Below are positions 35,305 through 46,398 of a stretch of 64,000 bases of DNA, one piece after another. The notes below the pieces were generated by a model. It was not told the origin of the DNA and did no database searches. It saw only the letters and a list, made by a program, of their open reading frames with translations. The stretch is from Wohlfahrtiimonas chitiniclastica DSM 18708 (GTDB taxonomy: Bacteria > Pseudomonadota > Gammaproteobacteria > Cardiobacteriales > Wohlfahrtiimonadaceae), in contig NZ_AQXD01000001.1 in the NCBI RefSeq assembly GCF_000375345.1, positions 58,807 through 122,806 of the forward strand, given 5' to 3'. How positions within the stretch are numbered: position 1 is the stretch's first letter; the number at the start of each line of letters is the position of its first letter. A program made the translations under genes and the position numbers.

Positions 35305-35319
35305 TGCTTAATTAGCTCG

Positions 35320-35347
35320 AAAAAGCCTGACATTGTCAGGCTTTTTT
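35320..35347 (+). terminator. Terminator after tig
   Basis: Stem AAAAAGCCTGAC (35320-35331) with GTCAGGCTTTTT (35335 on), ATT loop, T-run. Confidence 0.87.
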
Positions 35348-35439
35348 ATTGCCTGATGATGGGTAAGGGCGATAAATGGGTGAATGATTCTAGTTTATCT
35401 CATTGAAATATATATTTTTCTATAAAGATTGGCAGAAAA

Positions 35440-35598
35440 ATGGATGAATTGCTTGACGAATGGCTCAAATCCTTTTATGTTAATTTCTATGAAAACGAAT
35501 CCTGTGAATTTATCTCTCCTACGACTTATTCTGCTGTAATCGCAACGATTGCAGCCTTTGACGTTGGCCACGTATATGGCCAGAGTTTGAATCAGTAA
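35440..35598 (+). CDS. Possible small protein, 52 residues, unknown
   Basis: The frame starts 'MDELLDEWLKSFYVNFYENE' and ends 'AAFDVGHVYGQSLNQ'. Composition is protein-like, acidic at the N-terminus, with a small hydrophobic stretch 'YSAVIATIAAF'. I do not recognise a family. There is no good Shine-Dalgarno (only GGCAGAAAA before the ATG), which lowers confidence. It may be the first of two cotranslated small genes, or a remnant of an accessory gene. Confidence 0.35.
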   Translation: MDELLDEWLKSFYVNFYENESCEFISPTTYSAVIATIAAFDVGHVYGQSLNQ

Positions 35599-35614
35599 CG
35601 AGAAGAGATGATTG

Positions 35615-35761
35615 ATGTTCATAGCGAGTTTTAAAATCCAAAATGACAGTACCCATGCAAAAAACCACCGTTGGTTTGCGTGGCGTTATGCTGTGCGACT
35701 TAGAAAAAACATAACAATTCAAAACCATTCATTCATTCATTCATTCATCATTACACCGTAG
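35615..35761 (+). CDS. Possible small protein, 48 residues, running through a repeat
   Basis: Begins 'MFIASFKIQNDSTHAKNHRW' and continues with 'FAWRYAVRLRKN'; AGAAGAG lies seven bases before the ATG. The last dozen codons read through the ATTC repeat and the frame stops 15 bases before leuA. The basic, Trp-rich core looks like a real peptide, the tail is repeat-encoded. Not recognised. Confidence 0.33.
   Translation: MFIASFKIQNDSTHAKNHRWFAWRYAVRLRKNITIQNHSFIHSFIITP
35727..35746 (+). repeat. Tetranucleotide repeat (ATTC)5
   Basis: Five perfect ATTC units plus a partial sixth, ending about 30 bp before the leuA ATG. Four-base units can shift a reading frame when copy number changes. Confidence 0.9.
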
Positions 35762-35776
35762 GAAAAAGGATACATT

Positions 35777-42803: not shown

Positions 42804-42830
42804 ATCCCCGCTGAGGCGGGGATTTTTTTA
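42804..42830. terminator. Terminator between mnmE and radA
   Basis: ATCCCCGC/GCGGGGAT stem (42804-42811, 42816-42823), TGAG loop, T7 on the plus strand. It also lies just after the radA stop on the other strand. Confidence 0.85.
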
Positions 42831-44207
42831 TTCGCTAAAATCATTGAGTGCATCAATCACTTCAGATAATTTCGTCACAGAGACCACTTTTAAGCCTTCC
42901 GGAATTTTCCTTGGGGCATTGCCTTTCGGTAAAATGGCTTTGGTGAATCCATGTTTAAAAGCTTCTTTTAAGCGCTCTTCACCATGCGGAATCGGGCGAA
43001 TTTCACCGGATAAACCCACTTCGCCAAAAATCACTAAATCCGCCGGAATCACTTTATTGCGAAAGCTTGAATAAGTTGCGGCAATGACGGCTAAATCTGA
43101 GGCAGTTTCTGTCACTTTGACGCCACCTACAGCATTGACGTACACATCTTGATCATTCATGGCAATGCCGGCATGGCGGTGCAATACCGCAAGCAACATG
43201 GTTAAGCGGGCTTGCTCAATCCCCAATGTTACGCGGCGCGGATAGTTGCCAAAGGATTGATCCACCAATGCTTGAATCTCAACCAAAAGCGGGCGCGTCC
43301 CCTCTTTGGTCACCATGATGACGCTGCCGGCACTGGGCTCATCGTGGCGCGATAAAAAGATGGCAGAAGGATTGCTCACTTCACGTAAGCCTTTATCCGT
43401 CATGGCGAAGATGCCAAGCTCATTGACAGGACCAAAGCGGTTTTTATAGGCACGCATGACGCGAAAACGCGAACCAACTTCACCTTCAAAGTACAAAACA
43501 GAGTCCACCATGTGCTCTAACACGCGAGGGCCTGCGATTGCACCTTCTTTGGTGACATGACCCACTAAGAAGATGGCAGTATTGGTGCGTTTGGCATATC
43601 GAGTGAGTAGGGCAGCACTCTCTCTGACTTGTGCCACATTGCCGGGTGCAGAGGTGAGAAACTCTGTAAAAATGGTTTGAATGGAGTCAATGACCATGAT
43701 TTTTGGCTTGAGGGCTTCTGCCGTGGCGATGATCTTTTCTACAGATGTTTCAGAAAGAATCTTAAGCTCACTTTGTGCCAAGGATAAGCGCTCTGCCCGC
43801 AAGGCAATTTGGCTTGGGGACTCTTCACCCGTCACATACAGCACATCATAATGCTGACTGAAATGCACCATTGTTTGCAATAAAATGGTGGATTTACCAA
43901 TGCCAGGATCACCGCCAATGAGCACCACAGAACCTGTGACCAAGCCACCGCCAAGGACTCGATTTAGCTCGGTTAATCCTGTATCATAGCGCTGATGTTC
44001 CTCTTTTTGAATATTGTTGAGGGTTTGAATCGCAGCACTGCCTGCGGTGCCTGCATAGCCTGATAAACGCGCGGAAGTGGGCGGTGATTTTTCCACAATC
44101 GCCTCTTCAATGGTGTTCCATTCTAGGCACTCAAGACACTGACCGGCCCATTTTTGGGTGACGTTGCCACAAGCATGACAAACGTACTGTTTTTTCGTTT
44201 TGCTCAT
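42828..44207 (-). CDS. radA: DNA repair protein RadA
   Basis: 459 residues. Four-cysteine zinc finger 'CHACGNVTQKWAGQCLEC' at residues 10-27, RecA-like ATPase with 'GGDPGIGKSTILLQ', the RadA-specific 'KNRFG' motif ('RAYKNRFGPVNELG') and a C-terminal Lon-like domain. It is a branch-migration helicase in recombination. Divergent from hfq across a long non-coding region. Confidence 0.96.
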   Translation of the reverse strand: MSKTKKQYVCHACGNVTQKWAGQCLECLEWNTIEEAIVEKSPPTSARLSGYAGTAGSAAIQTLNNIQKEEHQRYDTGLTELNRVLGGGLVTGSVVLIGGDPGIGKSTILLQTMVHFSQHYDVLYVTGEESPSQIALRAERLSLAQSELKILSETSVEKIIATAEALKPKIMVIDSIQTIFTEFLTSAPGNVAQVRESAALLTRYAKRTNTAIFLVGHVTKEGAIAGPRVLEHMVDSVLYFEGEVGSRFRVMRAYKNRFGPVNELGIFAMTDKGLREVSNPSAIFLSRHDEPSAGSVIMVTKEGTRPLLVEIQALVDQSFGNYPRRVTLGIEQARLTMLLAVLHRHAGIAMNDQDVYVNAVGGVKVTETASDLAVIAATYSSFRNKVIPADLVIFGEVGLSGEIRPIPHGEERLKEAFKHGFTKAILPKGNAPRKIPEGLKVVSVTKLSEVIDALNDFSE

Positions 44208-44786
44208 AAATATCGCACTTATTCCTTAGTCTGTTCCTTTTTTAGAACGTAGCGTTTCATATATATATACGAATGTGTACAAAAAAAGGTCTATATCCTG
44301 CTCGTAAAAGGATATAATACAGACTGATTCCAATATATTCATCTAAAAATACAATACAGCTTGACGAAAAAGGAGAGCTGTTGAAAAAGTCGCTTTTTCA
44401 ATGTGTGCAGGCCCAATGATCGATAAACGAGCTGTTTATGGATCTATCTGTGTTCTATTTCATTGTAAAAGTAGATAACATTGTGTTTTATGACAATGAA
44501 AGGCTGTTGACAAAGTTGTATGATTGAGAGTGTAGCGTCTGACACCATCGGGTGAAGAGATTCTATGCTTTTAGTTGTTTTGATGTAAATTAAAAAGCAC
44601 ATCACTTGGTCAACATCTTTCTAGGTTCAGCAGTATTTGGTGACTTTATGATTGACATTTATAGTTTCTATTACGCAAGGGAAGTATTTATGTATATAAT
44701 GGTCACTAGGTGGAGATAGTCGAATCAGTACAATAAAGATGTAACAAATTTCTCAAAATTAATTAATATTAGTGAAGGATATAACA
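44208..44786 (+). other. 579-nt structured non-coding region upstream of hfq
   Basis: No gene of normal size fits. I see at least four inverted repeats: 44292-44298/44310-44316, 44381-44389/44393-44401 (9 bp, triloop), 44423-44428/44434-44439 and 44458-44466/44493-44501 (9 bp). There is a TATAAT at 44313-44318, a second at 44695-44700, three copies of a 14-base motif, and a 12-codon frame with a good ribosome site. miaA, the usual upstream neighbour of hfq, is absent. It could be a long hfq leader, a small RNA locus or a decayed mobile fragment. Confidence 0.6.
44671..44700 (+). promoter_or_regulatory. Probable hfq promoter
   Basis: TTACGC (44671-44676), 18-nt spacer, perfect TATAAT (44695-44700), 86 bp before the hfq ATG. 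Confidence 0.5.
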
Positions 44787-45053
44787 ATGGCAAAATCTCA
44801 ATCTCTCCAGGATCCATTTTTAAATGTGCTCCGTAAGGAAAAAATCCCAGTCTCTATTTATTTGATCAACGGTATTAAACTCCAAGGTCAAGTAGAATCT
44901 TTTGACCAATTCGTGGTGTTATTGCGCTCGAACGTTAGCCAAATGATCTACAAGCATGCGATTTCTACAATCGTACCTGCACGTAGCATTCGTGTGAGCT
45001 TCGATGGTGATGAAGCCGTTTCTGAAGAAGTTGAAACAGAAATCACAATTTAA
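44787..45053 (+). CDS. hfq: RNA chaperone Hfq
   Basis: 88 residues. '[20 protein letters not shown]' and '[17 protein letters not shown]' form Sm1, '[12 protein letters not shown]' is Sm2 with the conserved proximal-face 'YKH'. The C-terminal tail is short (about 20 residues) and acidic. Hfq pairs sRNAs with mRNAs. ATG 44787 is preceded by GAAGGA; a TTG further upstream is discarded. Confidence 0.97.
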
Positions 45054-45108
45054 TCGCCAAAGCGAATTTCGTGTTAGAATTGACTTTTTAGCCGGCATAC
45101 AGACATAA

Positions 45109-46398
45109 ATGTTCGAAAACGAAAGTCAGACACGAAGTGGAGATCAAGCCGTTCTTGTGAGTCTACAGACACAAGATGCCCATGCAGAAGAAATTGTAGA
45201 ATTCCAAGAGCTGGTCAAAGCTGCGGACGTGAGCGAGCTTACCTTGATTAAAGGCAAGCTCGCAACGCCGAATCAAAAATACTTCTTAGGTTTAGGAAAG
45301 GTTGAAGAGGTTTTAGAAGCTGTCAATGCGCTTGAGGCGAATGTTGTCATCGTTAATCATGAACTCTCTCCTTCACAAAATCGTAACCTAGAACGTTTCT
45401 TAAAAGTCCGTGTGGTCGATCGTACGGCACTCATCCTTGACATATTTGCACAGCGTGCAGAAAGCTTTGAAGGTAAACTTCAGGTGGAGCTTGCGCAATT
45501 GACGCACATTTCCTCGCGTTTGGTGCGCATGTGGACGCATTTAGACAGTTTGCGTGGCGGTAGCGTGGGTCTGCGTGGTCCCGGTGAATCTCAGCTTGAG
45601 ATGGATAAACGCATGATTGGGCTACGCATTAAGCAGCTCAAAAAGAAATTAGAAAAAGTCCAACAAACCCGCGAGCAAGGACAAGCACTGCGCAATCGTT
45701 TAGGCGTGCCAGTTGTGGCGCTTGTCGGTTATACGAATGCGGGTAAATCGAGTCTATTTAACCGTTTAACAGATGCGGGCACTTATGTGGAAGATAAGCT
45801 CTTTGCCACGCTTGATCCTAAGCATCGCACACTCTTTTTAGAAAACATTGGCGATGTGGTGTTGATCGATACGGTGGGTTTTATCTCTAAATTGCCCCAT
45901 GAGCTTGTCACCGCATTCCATTCTACTTTACAAAGTGCAGCCGATGCTGATCTCTTATTAGAAGTGATCGATGCTGGTGATCCTGAGCGCGAATTTAAAA
46001 GCGAGCAGGTGGCGAATGTCTTGGTGGACATTGGTGCAGAAGCTGTGCCGCGCATTCAAGTGAACAATAAAATTGATTTATTAGAAAATGTCGAGCCGCA
46101 TGTCATTTATAACGATGAACAGCAGCCGTCTGCTGTGTGGATTTCGGCAGAAAAAGATTTAGGGATTCAAGCCCTTAAAGATGCCATTGGTGATTATTTT
46201 AAAGATCAACATGTGACGAAAAATGTTGTTCTCCCGCCATCACAAGGGCGATTACGTGCTAAGCTATTTGCATTAAATGCCGTTAAAAATGAGTCTGTGA
46301 ATGAACAAGGTGAATTTGAAATGGCATTATTGATGCATAAAGCTGAGTGGGACCGCTTGTTAAAGCATGATGTTGATGCCCAAAAATACCTCAACTAG
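45109..46398 (+). CDS. hflX: Ribosome-associated GTPase HflX
   Basis: 429 residues: N-terminal HflX domain with 'VNHELSPSQNRNLE' and the glycine-rich 'GSVGLRGPGESQLE', then the G domain with 'GYTNAGKSSLFNRL', 'DTVGFI' and 'NKID'. It splits stalled ribosomes, notably after heat shock. It lies 55 bp after hfq, as in other gammaproteobacteria. Confidence 0.96.
   Translation: MFENESQTRSGDQAVLVSLQTQDAHAEEIVEFQELVKAADVSELTLIKGKLATPNQKYFLGLGKVEEVLEAVNALEANVVIVNHELSPSQNRNLERFLKVRVVDRTALILDIFAQRAESFEGKLQVELAQLTHISSRLVRMWTHLDSLRGGSVGLRGPGESQLEMDKRMIGLRIKQLKKKLEKVQQTREQGQALRNRLGVPVVALVGYTNAGKSSLFNRLTDAGTYVEDKLFATLDPKHRTLFLENIGDVVLIDTVGFISKLPHELVTAFHSTLQSAADADLLLEVIDAGDPEREFKSEQVANVLVDIGAEAVPRIQVNNKIDLLENVEPHVIYNDEQQPSAVWISAEKDLGIQALKDAIGDYFKDQHVTKNVVLPPSQGRLRAKLFALNAVKNESVNEQGEFEMALLMHKAEWDRLLKHDVDAQKYLN

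Follow-up and report, generated by a model that had tools for sequence, protein, structure and literature searches.

What occupies the long gap between radA and hfq in Wohlfahrtiimonas chitiniclastica DSM 18708: a leader of hfq, a separate small RNA, or only the promoters of two divergent genes? The window, that is, the whole stretch of 64,000 nucleotides analyzed here, comes from a genome of 1.99 Mb in seven contigs (G000 below). The original prediction regarded this gap as the largest in the window and as a candidate leader or small RNA. Indeed, it measures 579 nt to the conserved ATG at 44787 (564 nt in the mechanical ORF call, which starts at GTG 44772), about twice as long as the second-largest gap of 267 nt. 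The features that define the locus are as follows.

42828-44207, minus strand: radA, divergent neighbour, 459 aa; ORF whose orthologue adjoins hfq in all six genomes of the genus
44208-44786, plus strand: radA-hfq gap, sense-strand structured RNA region according to folding z and length conservation
44787-45053, plus strand: hfq, 88 aa; ORF with 95-100% identity in the five other genomes of the genus

The minus-strand ORF is presumably radA, the name hfq agrees with the original prediction, and the ORFs 3′ of hfq are presumably hflX, hflK, hflC and purA. The gene miaA is absent from the locus, as had been predicted, and was found on another contig (G000:C3:169006).

Conservation of the gap and its neighbours

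The comparison within the genus included six genomes: G000, G001, G002, G003, G004 and G005. In each of them radA and hfq are divergent and lie 574-595 nt apart. Identity of the gap reaches 98% between G000 and G002, 76% between G003 and G004, and 76% between G001 and G005, with 50-61% between these pairs, so the evidence amounts to three lineages and not six. When profiles were built solely from G001, G003, G004 and G005, which make up the other two lineages, they picked out two islands in the 64-kb window: one at 44329-44372 (E 8.8e-5), the other at 44735-44786 (E 1.3e-10). Thus, the outcome named beforehand as contrary to the original prediction, an unconserved sequence peculiar to a single strain, is not what was found: the gap is kept in all six genomes and has conserved blocks near both ends.

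The first island, block A, was searched for in 18 genomes. Strong matches were confined to the radA-hfq gap, with E of 1e-17 or better in all six genus genomes, from whose own sequences the model had been built; the best match in the 12 other genomes of the family had an E of 0.009. In a genome of the sister genus (G006; L155, 1-2160) radA lies downstream of a comF-like ORF, named by eye, and no hfq was found beside it within the fetched stretch. In the other family genomes with upstream ORFs listed, hfq has a different divergent neighbour. From this gene order, the divergent placing of radA and hfq appears to be a rearrangement specific to the genus. The gap fragment of G006 (206 nt, at a contig end) gave no structure signal and was left out of the six-genome counts. 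A scan of the genome collection with Hfq found no record as close as those within the genus (the best had 83% identity among the 80 listed), and therefore no sequences were added to the comparison.

A different hfq leader was noticed in the Ignatzschineria-type genomes (L009, L012, L014, L017, L018, L020, L022 and L023), where it takes up the last ~115-140 nt before hfq. It has a conserved TATAAT and two hairpins. The first varies in its letters but, judged by eye, remains complementary to itself; GAGTY/RACTC closes the second. The consensus fold of this leader includes 11 pairs, one of them with a two-sided change. The model of this leader (R2), searched in 10 sources at E up to 10, matched neither the window nor the five other genus loci, and its single match overall was a weak one in L026 (E 0.18).

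Folding of the gap

On the sense strand the whole gap folds with a z of -3.99, and none of 100 shuffles was as stable; the antisense strand gave z -1.31, with 9 of 100 shuffles as stable. As a control, 214 tiles of 300 nt across the window had a mean z of -0.62 (sd 1.16), with one tile below -4, and the sense-strand gap tiles at 44280 and 44330 reached -4.59 and -4.19. The same bias was seen throughout the genus. Sense and antisense z values were -4.25 and -1.33 in G000, -2.63 and -1.14 in G002, -4.26 and -3.25 in G004, -1.53 and 0.28 in G003, -2.33 and -1.58 in G005, and -2.81 and -2.19 in G001. The sense value is the lower one in six of six gaps, and the sense strand beats its shuffles in all of them (0 of 60 as stable in five). 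Among 25 positions of the folding window, the segment from -290 to -201 before hfq is the only one with a sense z of -2.36 or lower in every genome. Consensus folding of four genomes with shuffled columns gave a z of -4.15 for the antisense and -3.54 for the sense strand.

Several perfect inverted repeats had been predicted. Counting those whose arms measure at least 8 and whose loops measure 3-40, we found four, against 0.53 expected; at least four occurred in 2 of 500 dinucleotide shuffles. Three of them are listed here.

44292-44299/44309-44316: perfect inverted repeat
44381-44389/44393-44401: perfect inverted repeat
44458-44466/44493-44501: perfect inverted repeat

The two TATAAT elements, said to be about 380 bp apart, are present at 44313-44318 and 44695-44700 (382 apart). 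Since two or more of them arise in 75 of 500 shuffles of the gap, this pair is at chance level and is not evidence alone.

How much of the predicted structure is kept between sister genomes? In each test the fold was predicted from a single gap and then evaluated in the sister gap, with the substitutions permuted 1000 times as the null, a scheme that ignores their clustering. On the sense strand, when the fold of G001 was applied to G005, 31 pairs were broken where 49.1 were expected, and none of the 1000 permutations gave so small a number; double changes numbered 12 where 5.6 were expected (p 0.002). The reverse comparison, G005 to G001, gave 47 broken pairs against 53.6 (p 0.083), and the share of changed pairs that were kept had p 0.019. 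From G003 to G004, 26 pairs were broken against 41.3 (0 of 1000 as few; share kept, p 0.007), and from G004 to G003 no structural conservation was detected (47 against 47.2, p 0.52). On the antisense strand the p values for broken pairs were 0.02 (G001 to G005), 0.169 (G005 to G001), 0.35 (G003 to G004) and 0.605 (G004 to G003). Comparison of structure with relatives, which the original prediction had proposed, thus favours conserved sense folds beyond chance in most comparisons, with the exception of the G004 to G003 direction and of the hairpin alignment described below. Compensated helices flank the T-rich tract of that hairpin (H2): those at -384 to -323 and in H2 itself come before the tract, and those at -182 to -84 stand between the tract and hfq. 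The following helix belongs to the hfq-proximal part, where the segment from -150 to -61 has a z of -1.78 in G000 and -0.25 in G002.

44640-44706, plus strand: hfq-proximal helix from fold prediction, weak in the G000/G002 lineage

Some other structured places were noticed in the window. On the minus strand, the radA side of the gap (44208-44507) has a tile z of -4.12, and this radA leader carries a hairpin TATATCC..GGATATA followed by TTTTTTT. At the hfq-hflX junction (45001-45300) z is low on both strands (-3.52 and -2.88). The gap at 35305-35776, before a leuA-like ORF, has a sense z of -5.41 and is the most structured place among the 214 control tiles. That gap adjoins a strong hairpin and T tract on its upstream side, holds a TTCA-type repeat run and, by eye, an ORF of ~50 codons, and had no Rfam match near the cut-off.

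The terminator-like hairpin and the candidate RNA

The middle part of the gap includes three further features.

44329-44372, plus strand: block A, a conserved promoter-like block with a -10-like TACAAT (44350-44355) and CTTGACG (44360-44366)
44520-44582, plus strand: H2, a terminator-like hairpin and then TTTTAGTTGTTTT, judged by folding energy and shuffles
44359-44581, plus strand: candidate RNA unit of 223 nt, spanning CTTGACG through the T-rich tract; this interval is 215-223 nt in six of six genomes

The H2 site, a hairpin with a T-rich tract ~210 nt before hfq, is strongest in the window's genome, where a hairpin of -15.4 kcal/mol stands directly before TTTTAGTTG and can be extended to -22.7; it is strong in G002 as well. 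Its counterparts in G004 and G003 (-8.0 and -7.4) stand directly before TTTTTTATC, and no terminator-like hairpin reached the threshold on the sense strand of G005 and G001. Among 150 shuffles of the window's gap, -15.4 or better appeared anywhere four times and none reached -22; at the place of H2, -7.4 or better was reached in 2 of 150 shuffles for each of G000 and G004. When the 3′ arm was fixed and the 60 nt upstream were shuffled 300 times, the number of shuffles as stable was 2 for G000, 1 for G002, 3 for G004, 32 for G003, 1 for G005 and 143 for G001. By this measure the local hairpin is clear in four genomes, weak in G003 and absent in G001. In the outer helix of the window's H2, 7 of 16 pairs are G-U, and therefore this helix can form only as sense RNA.

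A simple terminator scan found none, with 3.2 expected by chance, and the profile built from relatives gave no match to H2 in the window by sequence. The automatic alignment of H2 yielded no consensus fold, which we attribute to a shift of the window's 5′ arm within it, and H2 was subsequently assessed from its position, its folding energy and the shuffles. Within a divergent gap, a sense-strand terminator would imply a transcript that starts inside the gap or runs antisense to radA.

Where could such a transcript start? CTTGACG of block A is present in all six genomes. Upstream of it there is a -10-like TATAAT (G003, G005) or a weaker variant, which in the window reads TACAAT; the -35 elements are poor. 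Promoter-like scores reach at best 8-10 of 12 across the genus, and block A has 8 of 12 in the window's genome. If TTGACG is instead read as a possible -35, it is paired with TAAGAT in four genomes and has no -10 in G000 and G002. Because these scores are low and the -35 elements poor, the putative promoter is the weakest link.

Known RNA families did not account for the candidate. At the gathering score, Rfam identified only a tRNA in the whole window, and at E up to 5 the region had one small RNA match far below the cut-off (E 3.9). We rejected 6S RNA (RF00013), which is located elsewhere in all six genus genomes, and a CsrA sponge of the CsrB/RsmZ type, because the mid-gap has 0-4 GGA against 3.4-5.7 expected. 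The candidate RNA was not consistently predicted to pair with the hfq leader: of 200 shuffles, as good were 176 for G000, 177 for G002, 15 for G004, 12 for G003, 198 for G005 and 11 for G001. Among the papers searched, none joins hfq with Wohlfahrtiimonas, and the matches listed for Ignatzschineria small RNA or a Wohlfahrtiimonas transcriptome included nothing on the radA-hfq locus.

The proposed hfq leader, its relatives and the rival explanations

The second conserved island stands directly before hfq.

44735-44786, plus strand: conserved hfq ribosome-binding leader segment with a U-rich tract and GGA, from the profile match and motifs

In contrast to the stretch upstream, the last 90 nt before the ATG have no stable fold (sense z 0.49 to 2.40). 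The last ~60 nt are conserved, with TTTCTC or TTTTCTC starting at -38 to -44, GGA at -10 and AACAAT or AAAAAT at -4 in six of six genomes, and runs of three or more ARN triplets occur in the hfq leader of four of the six. As described in PMC6348989, E. coli Hfq holds down its own level by binding to the 5′ UTR of its mRNA, at a U stretch from -55 to -50 and at (ARN)3 from -20 to +4. As in that account, a U-rich tract and A-rich triplets lie here within the last ~60 nt, near the ribosome-binding site; unlike there, the U-rich tract begins at -38 to -44 and only (ARN)2, at -4 in all six genomes, reaches the start codon, the E. coli-type (ARN)3 across the ribosome-binding site (-20 to +4) being absent. 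The gene order also differs, with no miaA here and a long structured stretch upstream. Judged by motifs, the likeness to the E. coli type appears partial. CsrA of E. coli binds GGA at the hfq ribosome-binding site (PMC9037510).

Another RNA known beside an hfq gene is h2cR of Burkholderia cenocepacia, described in PMC3474761 as a 136-nt fragment antisense to the hfq2 leader. Like h2cR as described there, our candidate would be a small RNA with a 3′ poly-U adjoining an hfq gene and found in one genus only; unlike it, the candidate is sense, lies upstream, is ~220 nt long and is not complementary to hfq.

Attenuated mRNA leaders have a promoter, a structured leader and a terminator hairpin ahead of the coding gene. 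The promoter-like block, structured stretch and terminator-like hairpin before hfq resemble this plan, from which the locus differs in that no antiterminator, leader peptide or ligand was identified and no Rfam match found.

We favour, with a probability of roughly 0.45, a structured hfq leader RNA with a midway terminator-like hairpin, perhaps releasing a small RNA of ~220 nt. That the gap gives some structured sense RNA, whether leader or separate small RNA, seems likely. Such a leader or small RNA, the idea of the original prediction, agrees with the strand-biased folding, the conserved ends, the near-constant length and a terminator-like hairpin without a co-directional gene upstream; it gains nothing from the TATAAT pair or from E. 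coli-type (ARN)3.

If there is no such RNA, the gap may be an ordinary divergent promoter region, where block A and the ribosome-binding segment control the two genes, while the inverted repeats serve as binding sites for proteins or are folds that arise by chance in A+T-rich DNA. The two islands are just the traces expected of promoters and a ribosome-binding site, and antisense z is also low in G004, in G001 and near radA. We nevertheless find this explanation doubtful, since the sense z is the lower one in every gap and the G-U pairs of the outer H2 helix can form in the sense RNA alone. An independent small RNA gene (about 44360-44582) that merely neighbours hfq, which would then have its own downstream promoter, for example TATAAT at 44695, seems unlikely: the conserved start block and the terminator-like end at a fixed distance do form the usual anatomy of an Hfq-dependent small RNA, but compensated helices carry on between the T-rich tract and hfq, the terminator is weak in two of six genomes, and neither consistent pairing with the hfq leader nor an Rfam match at the gathering score was obtained. 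It is these compensated changes on both sides of the tract that lead us to prefer one long leader over a separate small RNA alone.

The gap also holds two matching copies 126 nt apart, which could suggest an internal duplication or a mobile-element remnant. Selected segments score 51 in alignment and their shuffles 21 plus or minus 4, although these segments were picked after the repeat was noticed; in the test over all offsets, which corrects for that choice, a self-alignment score of 51 does not stand out from 46.5 plus or minus 7. The genome itself has no matches beyond these two copies, the mid-gap has no further significant match there, and no phage match was found. For these reasons such an origin was rejected as extremely improbable.

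Under the long-leader reading, an untranslated structured RNA would run in the direction of hfq. Transcription would probably begin at block A, about 44360, pass a string of hairpins and meet the terminator-like hairpin and T-rich tract at about 44569-44582. Some polymerases may stop there, leaving an RNA of ~220 nt whose U-rich 3′ end could bind Hfq. The remaining polymerases, or transcripts from a nearer promoter, would continue into hfq as a long leader. The last part of this leader would be the conserved segment that has no stable fold and holds the U-rich tract and the ribosome-binding site, a place at which translation could be repressed by Hfq or CsrA. More speculative, and in our opinion improbable, is a genus-specific circuit with premature termination in the hfq leader releasing in cis, from one promoter, a ~220-nt Hfq-binding RNA. 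In this circuit the released RNA would report on or titrate Hfq, and Hfq would act on the terminator or the ribosome-binding segment.

If the favoured reading is true, the Hfq level would have a second control, in the form of a long structured leader that contains a terminator and possibly yields a small RNA as well. Such a leader would also illustrate how a regulatory RNA can retain its length and folding while losing its sequence.
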